Source: a virus | Strand: one strand, 5' to 3' | Length of the DNA: 43,699 bases | Virus record (IMG/VR): IMGVR_UViG_3300042879_003266 | Coordinates: 1 to 43,699 of that record | Shown here: positions 3 to 43,042 of the stretch, in pieces | Layout of the letters: each line of letters opens with the position of its first letter | Numbering within the stretch: position 1 is the first letter of the stretch | Translations under genes and position numbers: made by a program | Notes under the pieces: generated by a model | The model's database searches: none | What the model saw: the letters and a program-made list of their open reading frames with translations, nothing else | Told to the model about the DNA's origin: nothing

Positions 3-3000
3 CATTTAGCTGCAGAGTTTGACAGAGTTAGAGAATTTACTAATAATAAAGATTTATATAAAAATGTAATAGGTTTTAATAGACCTTTACCTAGTGGTAA
101 AATGGCTGGTGAAGAATTTTCTTTGTTTGCTAAAATGCTTTCTGAAAATACTAAAAATGATTTATATAGCATTATTAGTTCTCCAAGTAAACTAGAAGAT
201 ATTTTAGCTGAAAATGATGGTTTAAGAAAGAAAATATTTAAAGACATTCTTACTTATTTTAATACTAGACAAGAAGAATATACAAAAATGTATTTTAACA
301 AAATGCCTATTGTTGCAGATAGCTTGTATAGTTCTTTAGGTGTTTCAGAAGAAACTTTAGCTAATCAAGATAAAAAAGAATTAAATAAAATTTTAGTTAA
401 AGCTTTCTTATATAATGATATGATTTCTAAGATTGAGTCCTTCACATTATTTACAGGTGATTTAGTTCAATACAATCATGCTAAAGAAGAAGCAAGTAAA
501 AGAATACCTGGAGCTAGTTCTGATGGTATCATTCCTGTTACTGATCAAGCTGCTTATGATTATATCAATAATATTAAAGGCTTTAATGAAGTAACTTATG
601 CTGGTCAACAGAAAAAAGAAAATGATAAAATACAACTATTAAACATTCAAGGTACTTTTAACTCTGCTGTTATTAAAGATGCTATAAGAACTAGTATTTA
701 TTTACCAGAAATTTCTAATGCTTTATATGAAGACTATTATAAAACTAGACCTGAGTTAAGTAAAGAAGCTATTGATAAATTAGTTGCTAAAGATATTAAA
801 GCTTATACAAATATGCAAGAGTCTGATGGTGCTGCTTATCTTACTATTGATGCATACAGAGCTATTAAAAAATTATTTAATGACTGGAGTGAAGAACAAG
901 ATCAACTTTATAAAGATATTGTTAATGGTAAAGATGTAAGTTTACAAAAGTTCAATAAAACTTTCCCTGTAAGTAAACTTCATTATTATGGACCTTTAGG
1001 TAATAGTAAGTTTAAAAAATTAAATGCTAGAGCAATGCATAAATTTGCTGTAGCTCCTATTAATCCATTAATTGCTGTACCAGGAACTGCATTATATGAT
1101 TTACACAATTGGATGTTAGAACAGAATATTCAATACACTATGTTTGGTAGTGGTAGTAAAGCTACTACACTATCATTAATAGGTCTTGATGAAGAAGGTA
1201 AACCTGCATATGATGATATTTTTGCAGATGAAAAACAAGCTTCAATAAAAGCTGATGCCAAAGTTCAAAACAATATTATTTATTTAAATTATTTTAAAGA
1301 GGTAACTGCTATTGCTGCTAAGTTTAAAGAAGAAGTTACAGTACCTACACAAAAAAGGGTATTAGTATTAGATGCTTTATTTGATGCTGGTAACTTAAAA
1401 AATTCAGCAAATAAAAAAGTAGTAGACTCATATAAAAAATCAGTAAATGACTATACTTCTATTTTAAAAACAGAACTTTTAAATAAAATTGGGTTTAAAA
1501 AAGATGAGGATGGTAATTACACTGGTAAGCTAGATAAGTTTGTTGAATTAGTAAGAGATGAATTAGAATTAAAAGATACTCCTGAACATTTAATAAGACT
1601 ACTTGATGTAAACTTAGCAGGAAATTTAACAATGGATTTTTCTATACATCCAGAATCAGATCTTATTGAAAAAATTATTGTTAACAAAATTCAAAAAAGT
1701 ATAGTAAAACAAAAAACTAAAGGTGAAGCTTTAGTTCAAGTACCTACTACATTTACAAATGGTATTTGGGATAATGCTTATAGTTTAGAAACAGACTTAG
1801 ATAAAATTCAAAAATATCTTGGTACTAATAATCTACCTTTCTATAATAGAGGTGCAATTATTAATAAACAGACTGGAGAAAGAGCTGTAACAGACTTGAT
1901 GAAAGTTGCTGTTGCATTGCAAGGTGACTTTAAAAATTTACTTAATCTACCTGACCCAGCTAATTTAGAAACTACTATTGGTACTGTTGATAGATTAAAT
2001 GAGTTAATTAAAGATGATGTATGGTTACAAGAAAACAGAGATAAAATAACTATTGCTGGACCAAGAATCCCTACAGATGCTGTTAACTCTATTGAAGCTG
2101 CTGAAATCTGGCATTTCTTAGCAGAATCCTTTGGTAATACAGTAGTAGTACCTAGTGAAATAGTTGCTAAAGCAGGTTCAGATTATGATGCTGATAAAAT
2201 ATTCTTTATGTTCCCTAATTTAAATAGTGATGGAACACTTATTGAATCATTAGATACAGAAGAAAAAGATTTTATTACTCTATTAGAAGAAACAGATGAG
2301 TTGTCTTTAGATAAAACTTATAAGGGTAGAAAAAGTTCTTCATTGATTGAACAACAAAAGAAATATTTACAAAATCAACTTGTTAAAAATACAAGAGATA
2401 TTATTCAACTACCTGATAACTTTGTGAGTTTGATTAAACCAAATGAAATGTATTTGGTAAAAGATTATGTTGACTTCTTTAGAGAATCTGCTGAATACAA
2501 TCCTAAGAGAAAGGTACATGATGTAACTGAAGATCTAAATACTTTTAGTTATGAAGAAATGCCTGGAACAACTGCTTTAGAGTTTGAATATAACTTAAGT
2601 AAGTTTGAGCAAAATCTTTCTGGTAATAAACCATTGGGTATATTAGCTAAGAAAAACAAATGGCATACTTTAATGAAAACTATAGGTTTTATTTTACCTA
2701 AAACTTATAAAAAATTAGTATGGGATTTTATAGATAATACTTTTGAAGAGTCAAACATTAACTATGAGATGGTATTTAGATTACCGGTAAACAGAACACA
2801 AGATGGTAATGTATCTATAGCAAATGAGAACAATGTTGATAATGTAAAAATTGGTGATGTATTCTCCCATGCTTTACAAGGAATATTAGATAGAGCAAAA
2901 GATCCGTGGCCATTTTTAGTACAAATGGTAACAGAAGCATTACCTGTAATGAATCATTATCTAGAAGCAGGTGCTTCAGTACCTTCTGTATTAAAGATGA

Positions 3001-6000
3001 TGAAGTCACCTTTAGTAGATGATTATATTAGAAATCAAGTATATAATAATAGTGCTATTTCTCAAATAAATAGAACGGAACCTTTATCTAAATCAGCTAT
3101 TAAAAAGGCTAGTTTAGTTCCATTATTAGATAAATTTTTTCAGTATAATGATCCAAAAATATTACAATCTAAAATTCAAGAGTTAAAAATTAATGAAATT
3201 AAAGAGTCTTTAAAAGATACTGATTATACTGTACAGTATGTATATCAAGGAAAAAAACTTTCTAGTACTGCAGAAGACTTTATAAAAACTAAACTAATTA
3301 ATAGTGATATTGAAAAAATAAGTTTAAATTATGATGTTGTATATATACAAAATAATAATTTTACTGGAAACAATAGTTTCTTATTAGGTAAAGAAAACTA
3401 TTATTATGCTGCACAAGCTGCTTGGGAATTAGGTTTTGGTAATGATACAGCAACTGAAGATGAGCTTACTCAGATTATAAAAACTAAAGATAGAACATCT
3501 ATGAAATCTTTAGCTATTCTACTACATATGGTTCAAGCTGAAGAGCAGTTTAAAGGTCAAGATGATTTAGAAATGGCTTTTAGTCCAGATACAAGTATTG
3601 TAGATACTACATTACAAATAATAAATAGACAAGACTCTTTAGATAAATTAGAAAGTACTAGCAAGATTGATAAAAAATCATTAAAAAACTTATTAGACAA
3701 TTCAATTATATCAAGTTTTTATCAAAATGATTTAATACTTGACTTAGTAAATAATGTTTTCCCATTAAAACTTAATGAAGAAACATTAAACTTTCTAAAA
3801 ACTAAACTAGAAACAGACTATAAACTTATTAGTAATGTATTTGGGACAGGTTTACAAGGTAGAGACAGATTTACTAATAGTTTTAATAATGGTTTAGTAA
3901 ATTATATTTTCCAAAACTATTCATCTAGTATGCTTGATGAAAAGGGTAACATTACTGTGTTACCAAGTAATTATAAAGGTGTACCTATTGTTGAGTCTAA
4001 TACATTTACTGAAGATGCTGTTTTAAATAAAGGAGTTATAAATGTAAACTTGAATAAAATACAAGAAGACTATAAAAACTTAAGATTTACTACTGATCAA
4101 ACTAGAGATGTATTTACAGCAGCTCAGAATCCATTTGCTAATGTTAATGATTATGTTAAATACTTAGTAGTAAAACAATATCTAAAATCTGTTTTCCCAG
4201 TAGATACATTAACAGACAATCCTAGATTTAAAATTCATTTAAATAATAATCAAAATGATTTAGCTAAAGCTTATGAAGTATTCTTATCAGAAAGAACTTT
4301 GATGAATACATTCAATAGAGCTTATATCATGGGTACTACTAAATATAAATACACTGATCAGGTACTTGAAGTTATAAATAATCCAAAATATAATCTTAAA
4401 GAAAAGTACTCTGTATTAAATAACTTATCTAAGTCTACTACTGTAAAAACAGGAAGCATACTTCAATTAGATAATAAAGCTTTGGCAATAGGTCCTCAAG
4501 CTAGTGTGTATTATAAAAACTTAAAACAACTAGGAGATCTGTCAGTAATAAAAACTAATAATACAGAAGATAATAAATACATAACAGATGTATTTGCAAA
4601 CTTTTCAATGTTTATGTTTTATCAACACGGTGTAGGTTATTCTCCATTAGGTTTTACAAAAATTTATGACCCAGAAGAATTTGTTAAAGAAATGCAAAAA
4701 GCTTCAAATAACTTTTTGGAGACTCAGTTTTCTGATAATGTTTTAGATTACATATATGCTACTGTATTAGATAAAACTCAAAGGTTTAAAAATTACTTAC
4801 CTAAAGAAACTGATTCTGGTATAACAGAAAGATTAGAAGAAATGAAACTAGAATCTGAATTAGAAGGATTTAGTTCTGAAGAATTAGAACAGTTTATGGC
4901 TCTAACAGGAGGAGGTAATCTTACTAATATTATTAATAAAAAGTTATCTAAAGAAACTCCTACTCAACCATCTACTAGTGTTAAACCCATTGTTAAAGAT
5001 CTTAGCAGATGGGCTGATATAAAAGATGCTACAACACCTTATACAGATAAAGGAATTGTTGTAACAAGAGTTGGTAATACAGAAGAACAGTTTGGAAATC
5101 CTTTTATAGGATCAAAACGTAGAGATAAACAAGGTAATCTTATAGAGTCTAAAGTTGATAATATTACTGTATTTAATACTATTGATGAAGCTGACCAAGC
5201 ATACAGAGATTGGTTAATGGGTGCTAAACATCAAAACATTAAACCTGCAAGAAGAGAGTGGATACTTAAACAAATTAATGAAGGTAAACTAGATGGTAAA
5301 ACATTATTGTATTATAAACCTATGGAGGTTACAAACAATGATGGAACTATTGTAAAAGGAGGTTATCATTCTCATGCTGATACTCTTGCAGAAATAGTGG
5401 AAGAACTTAGAGGTACTCAACCATCTACTCAACCTACTACAGTTAAAGCTTACAGAACATCAGGTACATTCTCATCTAAAGTAAACTATGCACAACGCGG
5501 ATCTGGATCTTACTATGCATTAGATAAACCATTCCAAGAAATGGGTGCAGAAAATCCTGTAGAAGAAGTTACTGTAACATATGATCCATCTAAAACTTTA
5601 GATGCAACAACAGAAGAAGGTCAGACTAAATTTATGAAGATTAAAAGATCTGCTATTGAAGGTAAATTATTTAATTCTATGAAAGAATCTAATAATGCTG
5701 TATCAGAAGCTATGAGAGCTAATGGATATGACTCATTAATTGGTTGGATTGATCAGGATGTAAAAGATGCTGGTAGAGAACTTGTTATTTATAATCAACC
5801 TACTGTAGAACCAGTAGGAGAAGTTAAAGAAGGAGTAGTAGAATTATTTGAATCTAAACCAAATCTATCTCAAATTGGTACACCTCAGCAATATTCTCAA
5901 TGGATTAATTATCTTACTACTCAAGGTAAGCTAGCAGGTACAAAAGCTACTGATATATTATATCATGGTACTTATGAAGAATTTGAAGAGTTTGATGAAG

Positions 6001-7166
6001 AAAAAAAAGGAACAAACACTGGTATAAATACATATCAATCAGAAGACAAATCTGAGCAATTCTATAGTGATTCAGCACATACTGTTTTCTTTTCAGACCG
6101 TAAAACAAATGCTATTAGTTATACATTGTTAGGTAGAGATAAATATTTATCTGAAATCTTAGATGCTTTAAAAGATGTTAGAAATAGTTTAAAAGATATA
6201 GCAACTGATGCTGTAGAAGTTTTAAAAGCAATACCATACTTTAATAATCTTATTAAAAATGCAAAAAAAGAAGGTAAAACAAGTAAAGAAATAATTGAGT
6301 TATTAGGAAAAGAAGAAACTAAATTAGCTAAAAAGTATAAAGAAGGTTCTAGTTCACTTTTTACAAATGAGTTAGCTGGTTATGAAAATAGATTAAAAGA
6401 ACTTAATAAGTTTTTATCTAACCTTGATGTATTTAAAAAAGGTAATAATATTAATTTTAAAAATTCAGGAGGTAATTTTTATATCATTACCAAAGATGGT
6501 AAAATACAATTTATTAGATTGGATAAAGGAAGAACTGTGCTAACAGGAGAAAGATTTTATGCAGATGAGGTAGATGATAATAAAATTAAAGAATTCATTA
6601 AAGCTGCAATTGCTGAAGAAAACATGCTGCATAGTCAAGCAAAAATAAACATGAAAACTGTTGGTTATGAAGAGAAAGCAATACCTGTTCTTTTAAATTT
6701 ACAAAACCCATCTATTCATGATTATGAAGAATCATCATTTCCTGATGCATATAAAGGTACTAAAACAAGAACAGCTGCTTTTGCTGCTAAACAAGTTGCT
6801 GATGCACTTAAGAATGGAAATGATGGTGTTATCTATGAAAATATTGTAGATCCATTATTATCTAATTCATATGGGGTATTTGATGTAAAAAACATATATA
6901 TTCTTGGAGGAACAGAAGACATAAAAGGATTTAAAGAGTTTGTATCTACTCAACCCACACAAACATTAGCTAATCAAACTATGTCAAACCTTTATACACT
7001 AGAAGATCAAGCTAAAATACTAGATCATTTTAGAACAGCTCCTCAATATAAAAATGCTTATAGTAATTTGTCTGATGATGACTTAATAGCAAAAATTAAT
7101 GTTAAATTAGCTGACCCTGAAAAAAGAAATACTACTATAGAATTATTAAATAACTGTTTTAAATAG
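3..7166 (+). CDS. Virion DNA-dependent RNA polymerase, 5'-truncated, with C-terminal DUF4326-like and two ADP-ribosyltransferase-like domains
   Basis: The frame is open from nt 3 to the window edge, so the ATG at 102 is internal and the true start lies outside; 2387 codons are visible. The catalytic signature of two-barrel RNA polymerases is present: RIPTD (nt 2064-2078), like the RAPT segment of beta-prime subunits, then GSDYDADKIFFMF (nt 2175-2213) with the DxDxD metal-binding aspartates. crAss-like phages are known to package such a polymerase and eject it to transcribe early genes. After it come three further domains divided by Thr/Gln/Pro linkers: DUF4326-like (about nt 5045-5415; FGNPF, YRDWL, HADTLAE), a first ART-like domain (about 5440-5820; AYRTSG, GSGSYYALDKPF), and a second, ART-PolyVal-like (about 5945-6910; ILYHGT, VFFSD, NDGVIY). 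The gene ends in TAG 3 nt before the next ATG. Polymerase call strong; extra domains by motif only. Confidence 0.85.
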   Translation, partial: HLAAEFDRVREFTNNKDLYKNVIGFNRPLPSGKMAGEEFSLFAKMLSENTKNDLYSIISSPSKLEDILAENDGLRKKIFKDILTYFNTRQEEYTKMYFNKMPIVADSLYSSLGVSEETLANQDKKELNKILVKAFLYNDMISKIESFTLFTGDLVQYNHAKEEASKRIPGASSDGIIPVTDQAAYDYINNIKGFNEVTYAGQQKKENDKIQLLNIQGTFNSAVIKDAIRTSIYLPEISNALYEDYYKTRPELSKEAIDKLVAKDIKAYTNMQESDGAAYLTIDAYRAIKKLFNDWSEEQDQLYKDIVNGKDVSLQKFNKTFPVSKLHYYGPLGNSKFKKLNARAMHKFAVAPINPLIAVPGTALYDLHNWMLEQNIQYTMFGSGSKATTLSLIGLDEEGKPAYDDIFADEKQASIKADAKVQNNIIYLNYFKEVTAIAAKFKEEVTVPTQKRVLVLDALFDAGNLKNSANKKVVDSYKKSVNDYTSILKTELLNKIGFKKDEDGNYTGKLDKFVELVRDELELKDTPEHLIRLLDVNLAGNLTMDFSIHPESDLIEKIIVNKIQKSIVKQKTKGEALVQVPTTFTNGIWDNAYSLETDLDKIQKYLGTNNLPFYNRGAIINKQTGERAVTDLMKVAVALQGDFKNLLNLPDPANLETTIGTVDRLNELIKDDVWLQENRDKITIAGPRIPTDAVNSIEAAEIWHFLAESFGNTVVVPSEIVAKAGSDYDADKIFFMFPNLNSDGTLIESLDTEEKDFITLLEETDELSLDKTYKGRKSSSLIEQQKKYLQNQLVKNTRDIIQLPDNFVSLIKPNEMYLVKDYVDFFRESAEYNPKRKVHDVTEDLNTFSYEEMPGTTALEFEYNLSKFEQNLSGNKPLGILAKKNKWHTLMKTIGFILPKTYKKLVWDFIDNTFEESNINYEMVFRLPVNRTQDGNVSIANENNVDNVKIGDVFSHALQGILDRAKDPWPFLVQMVTEALPVMNHYLEAGASVPSVLKMMKSPLVDDYIRNQVYNNSAISQINRTEPLSKSAIKKASLVPLLDKFFQYNDPKILQSKIQELKINEIKESLKDTDYTVQYVYQGKKLSSTAEDFIKTKLINSDIEKISLNYDVVYIQNNNFTGNNSFLLGKENYYYAAQAAWELGFGNDTATEDELTQIIKTKDRTSMKSLAILLHMVQAEEQFKGQDDLEMAFSPDTSIVDTTLQIINRQDSLDKLESTSKIDKKSLKNLLDNSIISSFYQNDLILDLVNNVFPLKLNEETLNFLKTKLETDYKLISNVFGTGLQGRDRFTNSFNNGLVNYIFQNYSSSMLDEKGNITVLPSNYKGVPIVESNTFTEDAVLNKGVINVNLNKIQEDYKNLRFTTDQTRDVFTAAQNPFANVNDYVKYLVVKQYLKSVFPVDTLTDNPRFKIHLNNNQNDLAKAYEVFLSERTLMNTFNRAYIMGTTKYKYTDQVLEVINNPKYNLKEKYSVLNNLSKSTTVKTGSILQLDNKALAIGPQASVYYKNLKQLGDLSVIKTNNTEDNKYITDVFANFSMFMFYQHGVGYSPLGFTKIYDPEEFVKEMQKASNNFLETQFSDNVLDYIYATVLDKTQRFKNYLPKETDSGITERLEEMKLESELEGFSSEELEQFMALTGGGNLTNIINKKLSKETPTQPSTSVKPIVKDLSRWADIKDATTPYTDKGIVVTRVGNTEEQFGNPFIGSKRRDKQGNLIESKVDNITVFNTIDEADQAYRDWLMGAKHQNIKPARREWILKQINEGKLDGKTLLYYKPMEVTNNDGTIVKGGYHSHADTLAEIVEELRGTQPSTQPTTVKAYRTSGTFSSKVNYAQRGSGSYYALDKPFQEMGAENPVEEVTVTYDPSKTLDATTEEGQTKFMKIKRSAIEGKLFNSMKESNNAVSEAMRANGYDSLIGWIDQDVKDAGRELVIYNQPTVEPVGEVKEGVVELFESKPNLSQIGTPQQYSQWINYLTTQGKLAGTKATDILYHGTYEEFEEFDEEKKGTNTGINTYQSEDKSEQFYSDSAHTVFFSDRKTNAISYTLLGRDKYLSEILDALKDVRNSLKDIATDAVEVLKAIPYFNNLIKNAKKEGKTSKEIIELLGKEETKLAKKYKEGSSSLFTNELAGYENRLKELNKFLSNLDVFKKGNNINFKNSGGNFYIITKDGKIQFIRLDKGRTVLTGERFYADEVDDNKIKEFIKAAIAEENMLHSQAKINMKTVGYEEKAIPVLLNLQNPSIHDYEESSFPDAYKGTKTRTAAFAAKQVADALKNGNDGVIYENIVDPLLSNSYGVFDVKNIYILGGTEDIKGFKEFVSTQPTQTLANQTMSNLYTLEDQAKILDHFRTAPQYKNAYSNLSDDDLIAKINVKLADPEKRNTTIELLNNCFK

Positions 7167-7169
7167 ATC

Positions 7170-8042
7170 ATGGCTTGTGTAAACCCTAATAGTAAAGAGT
7201 ATAAAGATCTTTTAAGAGAACTTGGAGATCCTTTTGATGCTGAAATAGAGTATGTCAAAAGATATGGTCTAGTTGAAAATGTAGATTATGTTACTACTGA
7301 AGCAACAGTAAAAAGTCTTTATAGAAAAAAAGGTTTGATGGATGATAAATTAAACATTGCTAAATATAAATTTGCAGAGTTTAATAAATTTAATGCAGAA
7401 TTATCAAAACAATATAATGAAGAGTATGGTATCCCAGGACTGCTTTTTTATGATGAACAAAATGGGTTTAAAGCAGTACCTAATACAGAAATGTTTCATA
7501 GAATAGATGTTGCTAAAGGTATATACTATCCAGAAAATGCATATATAAGAGAAGGTTATGAAGCTTTAGAAGATGATAATGATAAATATGAACCTGAAGA
7601 ATATTTAGATAGCACATTAGCCACTTTTACTGAAGCTTCAAAATTTGATATTGATCAAAAAACTTTCTTAGATATATTAAAAAGAAGAAATGGTGTAGCA
7701 CCAGATATGTTTATTTCTGAGGATAGAAAATATGTAATGAATCCAAAGGGTTATTATAATCTTATAGACCAAGAAACTAATACTATTCTTTTAAAGAATT
7801 TAAATTTAGGAGAAAAACAGTTAGTTATGGATTTTCAATATGCTGAAGATGTTGCTGTTTTAAAGAAAAAAAAGGAAGATGCTATTATTAATATATCTGA
7901 ACAAGTAAATAATAATTATTTAGATGTACTTTTAGCACTGAAAGATGAAGATATTAATGATTATATAGAAGCTGTAATAAAAGCAAAGTCTTCAGATGAA
8001 ATAGATGATGTCATGTATAAATTATTATTGAAAGTATGTTAA
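7170..8042 (+). CDS. Uncharacterised probable virion protein (290 aa)
   Basis: Starts 3 nt after the polymerase stop and overlaps the next gene by 7 nt, so the three + strand genes are almost certainly co-transcribed and probably co-packaged. No domain is recognised. The N-terminus (MACVNPNSKEYKDLL, then an acidic/aromatic helix ending KRYG) resembles that of the next gene (SCPNKSSKEWREAL... KVG), suggesting a shared module. The rest is charged and Lys/Glu/Asp-rich with no membrane segment or signal peptide. Around residues 175-235 it has a mixed strand/helix look (MFISEDRKYVMNPKGYYNL), but this gives no family. Function unknown; a role as ejected protein is inferred from position only. Confidence 0.8.
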   Translation: MACVNPNSKEYKDLLRELGDPFDAEIEYVKRYGLVENVDYVTTEATVKSLYRKKGLMDDKLNIAKYKFAEFNKFNAELSKQYNEEYGIPGLLFYDEQNGFKAVPNTEMFHRIDVAKGIYYPENAYIREGYEALEDDNDKYEPEEYLDSTLATFTEASKFDIDQKTFLDILKRRNGVAPDMFISEDRKYVMNPKGYYNLIDQETNTILLKNLNLGEKQLVMDFQYAEDVAVLKKKKEDAIINISEQVNNNYLDVLLALKDEDINDYIEAVIKAKSSDEIDDVMYKLLLKVC

Positions 8043-11000
8043 GTTGTCCAAATAAATCCAGCAAAGAATGGAGAGAAGCTTTAATTGAAGCTAATGGTAT
8101 TGAAGAAGAAGCTTTGAAAATATATAATGAAAAAGTAGGTGCTCCAGAAGAACCTATCACTTCAGATATTGAGGAAGATACTGACTTTGATAAACCTGAT
8201 ACTGTAGGAGAAGAAGTCAATCCAGATGATACTAATACTGAGTATAAAAACTTAATATCAGAAATTAGAATTTATTTGAAAAAACAACTTGCTATTTTAA
8301 AAAGAAAAGTAGTTGTTGACCAAACTAAAAAAGAAGGTAGACTTAAAACTATATTAGATAAACTTGAAGGTTTAGATGAAGCTGAAGCAGTAGATACTTT
8401 TATTACTGAAGCTTATAATCAATCTATTAAAGCTAAAAATAGATATAAAAAGTTTTTAGAAGAGAAAAATTCTATACCTAAAAAAGAAGCTATTTCTACT
8501 TTATTAGGTTTTTATGAATTTGCTAATGGTTATAATATATTAGATGAAGTTTCTAATGTCAATGTAAATAAATTTTTTGAAGAAGACAATGGTGTAATAT
8601 ATGATTCTGAAGGAAAACTTACAGCTCAATTTAAACTAGCACAAGCTATAAACATAAGAGAGAATATAAAAAGAGAGTTCATTAAAGAAGGTATTCCATT
8701 AATGGCTGACTTCTTATGGCAATATAAATCAGATTATGATTCTAAAAACTTAGATAGCTTAAAAGAGTTTTACCAAAAAAGATTAGTTGAGTTAACTAGC
8801 AGTGGAGAAATGGATGCTAAAAAAGCTAAACAGATTGAAACTCTAAAAAAAGATATAGCAAAACTAAATGGTTTAGTATTAGATAAAGAATCTCTAGAAA
8901 GTTTATTAAAAACAGCTTTAGAAGATGAAGGAGCTTTACAGTTTTTAGTTGGACCACTTATATCTTCACCAGATGCTGTATTGTCTTTATTTGCTAAATC
9001 TGTTAAGTCTCAGTTTGCAAAAGCTAAAATTGAATCTATAAAAGTTAGAGATGAAATATGGAAAAAATTTGATGCTTATGCTCAAACATCAGGTAAAGCC
9101 AAAGACAATCCTAAAAGTTTTAATGAAGGTATATATGAACTATTAGATAGCACATTAACTAAAGAAGATGGTACTAAAGAAACAGTTAAAAGAAAAGCTT
9201 TTGTTCAAAAATATGATTACAATGCCTATAGAAAAGTTCAGAAAGAATTCTTTGATACTTTAGGTCCTAAACCTACAATAGCTAAAGATAAAAAAGAGTA
9301 CTATCAAAAAATTGAAAATTGGTTTAGAGAAAATACTCAACCTAAACCTAAAGAAGAAAGAGATAAAATTATAGAACAAAAGAAAAAATTAAAAGATGCT
9401 GGTGTAATTACAGATGGAGAATACAGTGTTTGGTATAATAGTATATATAGTAGTTATAAAGGTAAAATAACATATAAAGGAGAGTTATCTGAACCTTCTG
9501 ATAAATGGATTAATGATAACTGGAAAGAGTTATATAATCTAGATGGTACTGCTAAAAATGCAAAAGGAGAACTTCATAAAACATTATTAGATGAGTATTT
9601 GTATTCTCAAAGTCTCATTCCAGAAAAACAAAGATTAGGTTATTTTCTACCTCCTGTACCTAAAACAGCTACAGAAAGATTAATTGAAAATGGTATAGGT
9701 AAAACTATTAAAAAAGGTTTTCAAGAAAAATTTAAAACTCAAGTATATGATGTAGGTTATGAACAAAAAGGTTCTGATTTAGAAGATATAGAAAATGAGA
9801 AAGGTTTAAATGAAAGAACTAGTTTATCTACATTAGGTGGTATGGAGGTTAAGTTCTTACCTACATATTTTACTCAAAAAATAGACCCTGAAGATATTAG
9901 TTTAGATTTAACTAGATCTGTACTCTTGTTCAGTCAAATGGCTAAAAATTATCAAGCCATGAATGAGATAGCTGGAGAGACTACTATGTTAAAAGCTATT
10001 GTTGGTAAAAGAGAAGTAGTAAGTTCTACAAGTAAAGGTGAACTTTTAATAGATGCTTTTGCTAAAAAAGAAGGATACTTAAAATTTATCAGTAAAAATG
10101 GAGAAGCTTATTCTAAAAAACATTTAGATGCTTTTATAGACATGGTTGTCTATGGAGAAATGAATAAAGCTGAAGAATTTATGGGTTTAGATATAGCAAA
10201 AATTACAGATAGTGTAATTAGTTTTTCTGCTTATAGTAGTCTTGCTTTAGATGCTATGAAAGGTCTTGCTAACAATCTTCAAGGTAATATACAATTAGTT
10301 ATTGAAGCCGCTGCAGGAGATTATTTTAGTTCTAAAAATTTATTTAATGCTAAAAAGAATTATAAATTAGGAGCTCCTTTTTTACAAGACTTTGGTAAAC
10401 CAATTCCCAAAAGCTTAGAAGGAAAACTTGTAGAGTATTATGATGCAATGCAAGGAGAATTTAAAGATCAATATGGTAAAAAAATATCTAACACAGCTTT
10501 CTTAAGATTATTTAGTACAAATACTTTCTTTTACTATATGCATGCTGCAGAACATGAAATTCAAGTAACTACTATGTTTGCTTTAATGGATGCAGAAAAA
10601 GTAATTGATAATGAAACAGGTGAAGAAATAAATTTATTTGAAGCTCATAAAAAATATGGTAGAGATGGTGTTCATGATAATACTAATTTCTCTTTAAAAA
10701 GAAAAGATGATTTTGAGAATAGATTACATGCTATAAATAAAAGATTACAAGGTGTATATAATGATTTTGATAAAGGTACTGCTCAAAGATATGCTATAAC
10801 TAGAGCTTTATTAATGTTCCGTAAACACATGGTTCCTGCTTATATGAGAAGGTTTAAAACATTATCTTATGATTATGAGTTGGATGACATTACACAAGGT
10901 TTTTATAGAACTTTTTGGAATACAATGGTAAAAGATCTTTTTGTATATAAAAAAAATATACTGAAAGAGTGGAATAATTACAGTCCTTATCAAAAAGCTC

Positions 11001-41829: not shown

Positions 41830-42594
41830 TTAAAGATTAATAAATTTCCAAACATAACCAGCACTTGTATTACTTTTTTGTTTTAAACAATTATTAATAC
41901 CCGTTCTAGATATATTTAATTCTTTTGCTGCTTCAGAAGCACTTTCCCAAATTTTTAAGGGTATAGCAGAACCATAAGAATACTGACCAATTTGTTTATT
42001 AGGTTTTCTTTTTTCAGGTACTTTACCTATACCAGCTTTAATTTCATATTTTCTCCATTGAAAACCTGCAATTAAGTTTCTTCTACCATTAATAGCTCTT
42101 GTAATATCAGCATGTAAACAATCTACATCTTTACAAGCATCATTTATACTACTATATGTTTTAACAAAGTTTCCATCTTTATCATAAGCAGTTACTGAAA
42201 TACTATATGGTTTTTGAGCTTGTTTATAAACATTAGATAAATGCTTTTTAGAATACTGTATCTTTTTTTTCAACTGAGGACCTGGATTTTTTAATCCTGC
42301 CCCTCCATCACACTGATTTATTAAAGTCCCAGTATTAAGATCTTTTCTACCATACTTTTTAATAAGCTTCATTTCTAATTTAAAAGCTTCTTCTTTAGTA
42401 AGGTTATCTTTTACAATCTTAACAATATATGGGCATATTCTTGCATAATCATGCCAAGCTGTTTTTCTTTTTTCAAAAGCAGATCTATAGGCTCTTGAAT
42501 AAATTAAACCTTCTGCACTAGTTAAAGACATGCCAACATAAAAAACTTCATTTATATCAGTTCTAACATGAATATATACATAATAACTTCTCAT
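41830..42594 (-). CDS. GIY-YIG homing endonuclease with NUMOD-type DNA-binding repeats (254 aa)
   Basis: Start at ATG 42594 (MRSYYVYIHVRTD). The GIY-YIG core reads YYVYI (4-8) and VFYVGMS (17-23), then RAYRSAFEKRKTAWHDYA and a later NQCDGG loop. Two C-terminal repeats (about 145-190: VTAYDKDGNFVKTYSSINDA; about 210-254: PLKIWESASEAAKELNISRT) are NUMOD1-type modules that contact the homing site. Such genes spread by cutting alleles without the insertion. About 45 AT-rich bases precede it. Likely a recent arrival beside another endonuclease gene. Confidence 0.88.
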   Translation of the reverse strand: MRSYYVYIHVRTDINEVFYVGMSLTSAEGLIYSRAYRSAFEKRKTAWHDYARICPYIVKIVKDNLTKEEAFKLEMKLIKKYGRKDLNTGTLINQCDGGAGLKNPGPQLKKKIQYSKKHLSNVYKQAQKPYSISVTAYDKDGNFVKTYSSINDACKDVDCLHADITRAINGRRNLIAGFQWRKYEIKAGIGKVPEKRKPNKQIGQYSYGSAIPLKIWESASEAAKELNISRTGINNCLKQKSNTSAGYVWKFINL

Positions 42595-42637: not shown

Positions 42638-43042
42638 CTATTTCAAATATCCTAGTATTCTTGCCTTTTCTGGGTTAGAATGGATCCAAGAATGGCATGA
42701 CCTACATGTTGCTAAGAACGTGCTCTGAATTAAGTAAAAAGCTTCTCTGTTGCTTCCAGCGTGTGTATGGTGAACATCAGTGGCACCATGGCCACATCCG
42801 TTCACCTTCACCACACATAATGGATTCTCAGTAAGAAATCTTTGTCTTAATTTAAGATACTCAGCATCTTTCTTCTTTCTTTTAGAAGAAACCAGAGGGA
42901 TTTTATAATCAGTTGGTTTCTGTATATTATCTTTATTCTTGGGATTCTGGCAACTCCAACAATATTTACAGTATTTGAATCCCTCATGGTTCTTCCATAT
43001 CACGGTTTCTTTCTGACAAGCATCACAAGTTTTAAGCTTCAT
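42638..43042 (-). CDS. HNH endonuclease with N-terminal zinc knuckles (134 aa)
   Basis: ATG 43042 (MKLKTCDACQKETV). CDAC and CKYCWSC form an N-terminal zinc site. The HNH core is NPLCVVKVNGCGHGATDVHH (catalytic HH), then LATCRSCHSWIHSNPEKARI with the second Cys/His pair. It ends GYLK. A free-standing HNH enzyme of this size is typical of phage homing or DNA-processing nucleases. The gene overlaps the upstream gene by 11 nt. Confidence 0.88.
   Translation of the reverse strand: MKLKTCDACQKETVIWKNHEGFKYCKYCWSCQNPKNKDNIQKPTDYKIPLVSSKRKKKDAEYLKLRQRFLTENPLCVVKVNGCGHGATDVHHTHAGSNREAFYLIQSTFLATCRSCHSWIHSNPEKARILGYLK

Follow-up and report, generated by a model that had tools for sequence, protein, structure and literature searches.

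The stretch of viral DNA analysed here (the window; IMG/VR record IMGVR_UViG_3300042879_003266, 43,699 nucleotides) begins within a single uninterrupted frame of which 2387 amino acids are visible, the 5' end remaining open at the window edge. This frame encodes an RNA polymerase followed by three further modules, and is succeeded by the genes of a small link protein of 290 residues and of a gp49-type protein of 1131 residues associated with the polymerase (Table 1). The presence of a gp49-type gene downstream corresponds to the neighbourhood expected for a virion RNA polymerase (vRNAP) of crAss-like phages. The genes identified in the window form a transcription and replication block (DnaB, Toprim primase, UDG, PD-(D/E)XK and SF2 helicase), and the window holds neither the structural gene block nor the N-terminal part of the vRNAP. 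On the opposite strand, a homing endonuclease gene stands beside that of an HNH-like protein rich in cysteine (9 Cys in 134 aa).

Table 1. Features of the window, with the evidence or residues that define them
Feature	Position (nt)	Strand	Evidence or remarks
vRNAP open reading frame	3..7166	+	
Polymerase part shared with other crAss-like vRNAPs	3..5042	+	core HMM, BLAST
Catalytic motif DYDAD	2181..2195	+	within the conserved GSDxDxD block
DUF4326-like module (aa 1651-1809)	4952..5429	+	weak Pfam match, hhalign, DNA match to L018
DUF4326 landmarks FGNPF; YRDWL; HADTLAE	5091..5105; 5202..5216; 5373..5393	+	
ART1 cassette (393 bp, 131 codons)	5430..5822	+	missing from L018 between matching flanks; copy in L098
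ART1 landmarks AYRTSG; GSGSYYALDKPF; GYDSLIGW	5448..5465; 5499..5534; 5724..5747	+	
ART2, ART-PolyVal-like module	5823..6962	+	Pfam match below cut-off, aligned residues, model
ART2 landmarks ILYHGT; VFFSD; NDGVIY	5955..5972; 6084..6098; 6819..6836	+	
Codon of vRNAP Cys2385	7155..7157	+	
Link protein, 290 aa	7170..8042	+	two terminal Cys; homologues in L012, L013, L015, L016
Codons of link protein Cys3; Cys290	7176..7178; 8037..8039	+	
gp49-type RNAP-associated cargo protein, 1131 aa	8036..11431	+	matches down to E 1e-49
Codon of gp49-type Cys4	8045..8047	+	
NUMOD1/I-HmuI-like homing endonuclease gene beside Cys-rich HNH-like protein	41833..42594 and 42641..43042	-	

The first-pass annotation had read this frame as a virion RNA polymerase of the crAss-like type carrying DUF4326-like and ADP-ribosyltransferase (ART)-like domains, and every motif that it named does lie in this one frame, at the place given. 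The assignment of the polymerase is solid on sequence grounds. The catalytic DYDAD aligns with the DFDVD/DFDID of known crassvirus RNAPs, the GSD.D.D and R.PT..S patterns being invariant, and the region preceding it aligns with the annotated RNAPs of PhicrAss001, cr85_1, cr4_1, jaberico and others (E 2e-3 to 2e-12 and about 21-24% identity among the matches listed). A PDB sequence search with the whole window vRNAP gave chance matches only or none, and pattern searches of IMG/VR from a single protein gave no match, whether based on the tail, on the polymerase segment or on ORF3. Relatives were collected by an IMG/VR profile search from known RNAPs, in which the best 80 of 518 candidates were kept, with identities of up to 54%; loci are designated below by L numbers. 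Since complete relatives have about 2,500 residues ahead of DxDxD, compared with 723 in the window vRNAP, an N-terminal part of some 1,800 residues is probably missing from the window. The core HMM matches aa 774-1680, and the BLAST alignments with the closest relatives stop at aa 1598-1679, which places the predicted end of the polymerase core near aa 1650-1680 and leaves a tail of about 700 residues. In two relatives the vRNAP is interrupted within the catalytic motif itself (GSDFD / VDK; L010 5971-14154 and L103 6657-17522), the intervening gene being annotated as an endonuclease in L010 and as hypothetical in L103, a pattern expected for an intron at DxDxD.

The first module of the tail resembles DUF4326 (PF14216), a proposed relative of rhodanese phosphatases that would process phosphates on ADP-ribose (PMC9503650). 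Its Pfam score is below the cut-off (14.4 against 25 bits, E 0.062), but a profile-profile comparison by hhalign with six genuine phage DUF4326 proteins reaches 94.3% (E 1e-7). The probe for these genuine proteins was a consensus sequence, and only the real phage sequences found with it are taken as evidence. The module shares with the family the GNPF, WL and C-terminal H(A/G)D.L landmarks. It differs in that the C-x-C-x-P-x-x-C-H-G motif, invariant in the six genuine proteins, reads YYKP...SH in the window. In six copies fused to vRNAPs, that of the window included, the three family cysteines are replaced while the landmarks and the histidine are retained. A PF14216 search of the contigs of two relatives gave no match, consistent with the loss of the motif scored by the model. 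A cysteine-dependent reaction is unlikely for this module because all three conserved cysteines are replaced; binding of a ligand is possible.

For the second module, ART1, a Pfam search found no family and a PDB sequence search no match. The one close relative that the searches revealed is a copy in the vRNAP of L098, 65-70% identical at the amino acid level and located upstream of a HEAWH zincin-like motif. Both copies conserve the AYRT, SYYAL-type and GRELV landmarks, and with them a putative catalytic set composed of the Arg of AYRT (Arg1818 in the window), the two adjacent Tyr of YYALD (Tyr1837/1838) and the Glu of GRELV; among the tail modules, this Arg...Tyr...Glu set is retained only in the first ART-like one. 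The tail was modelled with AlphaFold in two parts, both of moderate confidence (pLDDT 70.6 for DUF4326 with ART1, and 68.7), and the sole structural match with E <0.001 was to an uncharacterised viral protein. The top PDB match of the DUF4326-ART1 model is the ART anti-CRISPR AcrIF11 (6KYF; probability 0.87), at a non-significant E of 0.06 and with no sequence similarity found between the two. Among viral structures the model retrieved proteins named PolyVal ADP-ribosyltransferase and DUF4326, again without significant E values (probability 0.77 and E 0.053 for a viral PolyVal ART). ART1 appears as the best candidate among the modules for a host-modifying enzyme. A profile comparison revealed no visible relation between ART1 and the third module, ART2.

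ART2 combines an EGVxELFES lead-in with a large helical insertion in its middle, and approaches the ART-PolyVal family (PF18760) through its YHGT and FFSD landmarks (E 4.2e-5). It departs from this family by the insertion, by a score below the cut-off (24.8 against 31.2 bits) and probably by its active site: at the positions of the H-Y-D triad of ART-PolyVal proteins (PMC5512222), it aligns an invariant His1988, with Phe2029 where Tyr is expected and Asn2288 where Asp is, although the nearby Asp2283 may stand for the latter. Its weak PDB structural matches, none of them significant, are mostly PARP-type and RES ART domains. L016 carries a homologue that is 50% identical; a phage search with an ART2 homologue as query gave no match, and a profile comparison of the ART2 set with the ART of cr116_1 yielded a short motif match only (probability 18%). 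The active sites of the DUF4326-like module and of ART2 look altered or compromised; ADP-ribose or NAD derivatives are possible ligands of both. The domains initially proposed for the tail are retained with reservations. The DUF4326-like module and ART2 are backed by profile similarity, both below their Pfam cut-offs and the former devoid of its cysteines, whereas ART1 belongs to no sequence family; an active-site set can be drawn for ART1 while ART2 keeps only the His of the triad at the aligned positions; and the structural resemblance to an ART is suggestive without being significant.

The comparison with other crAss-like vRNAPs, suggested along with the initial annotation, proved informative, since tail modules recur among them in varying sets. 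In the closest clade the tail past the core ranges from 25 to 1329 aa, which marks it as a variable addition. Among 43 tails and inserts scanned with Pfam, we found AlkB-type 2OG-Fe(II) oxygenases (5), ART-PolyVal (4) and NADAR (2), in addition to RNase H, SLOG (cpYpsA), ASCH and helicase families; the largest number of Pfam domains in one relative is three (NADAR, ART and AlkB in L013). The commonest family in these regions is DUF7831 (8/43), of unknown function, and its copy in L033 is related in sequence to proteins of Rhizobium and Sphingobium phages. The vRNAPs of the human-gut cr116_1 (L103 6657-14180) and cr126_1 (L102 9615-16823) carry, on their N-terminal side, an ART-PolyVal domain (49.6 against 31.2 bits) and a NADAR domain (51.6 against 35.1 bits), respectively. 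Modules located within or upstream of the core in L034 (aa 3180-3630), L033 (aa 590-690) and L098 (aa 603-739) indicate that insertion is not confined to the C-terminal end.

The clearest trace of exchange is found at the DNA level. The DUF4326 module of the window is 88.7% identical to that of L018 across 478 bp, over exactly the extent of the module, whereas the polymerase parts of the two phages share about 64-69% identity where they can be aligned. In L018 this module is followed by 34 bp that match nt 5823-5856 of the window at 91%, so that the ART1 cassette is missing there with clean breaks. A homologous module in L098 matches at 74% DNA identity over 376 bp. Chance similarity of the tail is ruled out by this recurrence of homologous modules in other vRNAPs (L018, L098). 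A tblastn search of phage records with the three tail modules gave no match. With a DUF4326 stretch shared with L018, and ART1 cleanly absent from that locus, sequence comparison identifies the tail as an exchangeable payload whose modules are swapped between phages, rather than as the product of descent of a fixed fusion. The first-pass annotation had singled out the fusion as a unit, which overstates its permanence: the window displays one state of a changing payload. It nevertheless joins, in a single frame, an RNA polymerase and several unrelated predicted domains, as is typical of polyvalent proteins.

Packaging of the vRNAP in the virion is predicted by homology with relatives characterised by virion proteomics. 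PhicrAss001 virions contain the homologues gp47, gp49 and gp50 (PMC10172136), and the homologues g065-g067 of the Cellulophaga phage phi14:2 carry an annotation based on virion MS/MS. The relatives known both to occur in virions and to act in early transcription are those of PhicrAss001 and phi14:2 only; given these occurrences, the co-delivery of the polymerase and its payload is a reasonable assumption.

These cargo proteins have a singular distribution of cysteines. Over its 2387 visible aa the window vRNAP contains a single Cys (residue 2385); the link protein has exactly two, at residues 3 and 290; and the gp49-type protein has one, at residue 4, its C-terminal end being without Cys. The link-protein homologues of L012, L013, L015 and L016 likewise have a Cys at both ends. 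Across the relatives, a Cys occurs within the last 12 residues of every distinct vRNAP with an intact C-terminal end (60/60) and within the first 16 residues of 43 out of 49, while vRNAP interiors contain 11 Cys in 172,537 residues, compared with 0.73% in the other ORFs of the same loci. Five of the six N-terminal exceptions begin with upstream gp47/g067-type sequence and are thus fusions; in the sixth, L087, no fusion was detected. Among the last links of gp49 type that are complete at either end, the Cys is N-terminal in 31/31 and C-terminal in 0/31. The upstream neighbours, or first links, show the reverse (C-terminal Cys in 47/55, N-terminal Cys in 1/13 intact ends). In the upstream proteins of L077 and L081, where no fusion was detected, about 25 residues separate the Cys from the end. 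The pattern extends over the window, L012-L091, L099 and L101.

Reference phages follow the same rule. The sole cysteines of the phi14:2 trio are Cys1797 of g067 (1797 residues), Cys3 and Cys2179 of g066 (2180 residues) and Cys3 of g065. In crAss001 the cysteines are Cys2339 in gp47, Cys5, Cys1334 and Cys2404 in gp50, and Cys5 in gp49, and gp47 obeys the rule despite being encoded on the other strand from gp50 and gp49. Gut phages such as p-crAssphage keep the rule as well, tolerating a few interior cysteines. Where a homologue of part of the link protein is fused to the vRNAP (L025/L075), the junction Cys is missing. Under a model of uniform placement, chance is rejected for the window trio (about 5e-9) and for the phi14:2 trio (1e-10). 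The starts of block proteins also share a M-x-C-(P)N-x-x-S-x-E-W/Y-x-x-L pattern around the N-terminal Cys (at 7170 and 8036 in the window, and in many block ORFs).

This arrangement could be that of a cargo train, in which the upstream protein, the payload-bearing vRNAP, any small link and the gp49-type protein would be coupled covalently from C- to N-terminus by disulfides between terminal cysteines, would leave as one threaded chain and would separate in the reducing cytoplasm; any payload domain spliced into this chain would then have to shed its cysteines, as DUF4326 did. We consider the odds of this joint reading to be about even. The PhicrAss001 structure paper describes disulfides in the tail and portal vertex and analyses reduced and untreated virions, and none of the passages found in it mentions cargo cysteines (PMC10172136). 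The terminal cysteines might instead anchor each protein to a common partner, bind a metal at the chain ends or control release by redox state, readings that have in their favour that linking is deduced from Cys positions, and that we regard as the less probable side of the question. Against them, the end pattern fits a head-to-tail order (C-terminal in the first link, at both ends of the vRNAP, N-terminal only in the last link), fused neighbours lack the junction Cys, and gp47, gp50 and gp49 conform across two strands. The terminal-Cys rule may exceed the fusion of vRNAP and ART in novelty.

Taken together, we favour, with a probability of roughly two in three, a crAss-like virion RNA polymerase that bears an exchangeable payload related to ADP-ribose (DUF4326-like, ART1 and ART2) after its core. 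The polymerase, the modules, their exchange and the nearly cysteine-free chain are supported by sequence; the course of infection outlined here is inferred. By homology, the vRNAP would be stored in the capsid beside the other cargo proteins (upstream and gp49-type), and would be ejected through the tail, partly unfolded and ahead of the DNA, as proposed for PhicrAss001 (PMC10172136). A chain free of interior cysteines could be threaded and refolded without mispairing of disulfides, and this would account for the loss of cysteines even from DUF4326. In the most speculative step, the cysteines at the chain ends would couple successive cargo proteins head to tail until their reduction in the host cytoplasm. 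Once refolded, the polymerase would transcribe the early genes; the payload arriving with it would modify host proteins, most plausibly through ART1, and could bind or process ADP-ribose or NAD-derived defence molecules, the turnover of modules mirroring shifting host defences. The payload would most likely serve to counter NAD-dependent defence, since the recurrence of ART, NADAR, SLOG and DUF4326 fits the NAD-ADP-ribose network of phages (PMC9503650). The proposal that transcription start and host modification are delivered as one protein keeps its appeal, ADP-ribose-related domains being indeed fused to the polymerase, but is weakened by active sites that look compromised.

The tail could otherwise be an inert filler, or a spacer adjusting packaging and volume, made of decayed modules that neither catalyse nor bind. 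The replaced cysteines of DUF4326, the absence of the Tyr and Asp of H-Y-D at the aligned positions of ART2 and a tail length so variable that a fixed payload seems unnecessary all agree with this idea. It is nonetheless improbable: tails are enriched in ART, NADAR, SLOG, DUF4326 and nucleic-acid enzymes, several of them above curated cut-offs, ART1 is still 65-70% identical at two different places, and the frames remain open. Somewhat less probable still is a tail cleaved off, or a polyprotein processed as in N4-type polyvalent proteins, so that the modules would act apart from the polymerase. N4-like vRNAPs do bear metallopeptidase domains proposed to process the chain (PMC5512222), the related L098 vRNAP has its zincin-like motif and a p-crAssphage annotation describes an RNAP-associated protein fused to a zincin; yet the visible part of the window vRNAP yielded neither a cleavage site nor a protease domain, and the universal C-terminal Cys that closes the payload suggests a role for the chain end until packaging. 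A chimeric assembly or contamination, conceivable for a linear metagenomic fragment, is refuted by the recurrence of the architecture across numerous independent contigs as well as reference crassvirus genomes, by the continuous frame and by the conserved downstream gene order.

Compared with phi14:2 g066 and PhicrAss001 gp50, the window vRNAP shares the polymerase core, the aligned DxDxD, the adjoining gp49-type protein and the terminal cysteines, and differs by about 700 aa of DUF4326/ART-like sequence where both have shorter C-terminal regions, gp50 having no Pfam payload match. A fusion of vRNAP with ART has been described for N4-like phages, with the same idea of combined transcription and host modification (PMC5512222). 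There too a packaged RNAP is fused to ART and other effector domains, and the N4 vRNAP, with 0 Cys in 3500 aa, resembles the interior of the window vRNAP. In contrast, the N4-type enzyme is a T7-like single-subunit RNAP of unrelated fold, its ARTs possess H-Y-D, and it forms a single chain without terminal cysteines. What is known is thus the fusion in N4-like phages, and what appears new is its variant in a crAss-like vRNAP. In the literature searched no description of an ART fusion in crAss-like vRNAPs was found, and single annotations exist, namely a 'DUF1768' in cr126_1 and an ART-PolyVal-like entry of cr116_1.

CrAss-like phages rank among the most abundant human-gut viruses. Our analysis extends the idea of polyvalent effectors from N4-type enzymes to the unrelated multisubunit-type vRNAP of these phages, and suggests ADP-ribose metabolism as an early target that recurs. 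If the terminal-Cys rule reflects disulfide coupling, it would also answer how several giant cargo proteins exit the capsid in order.
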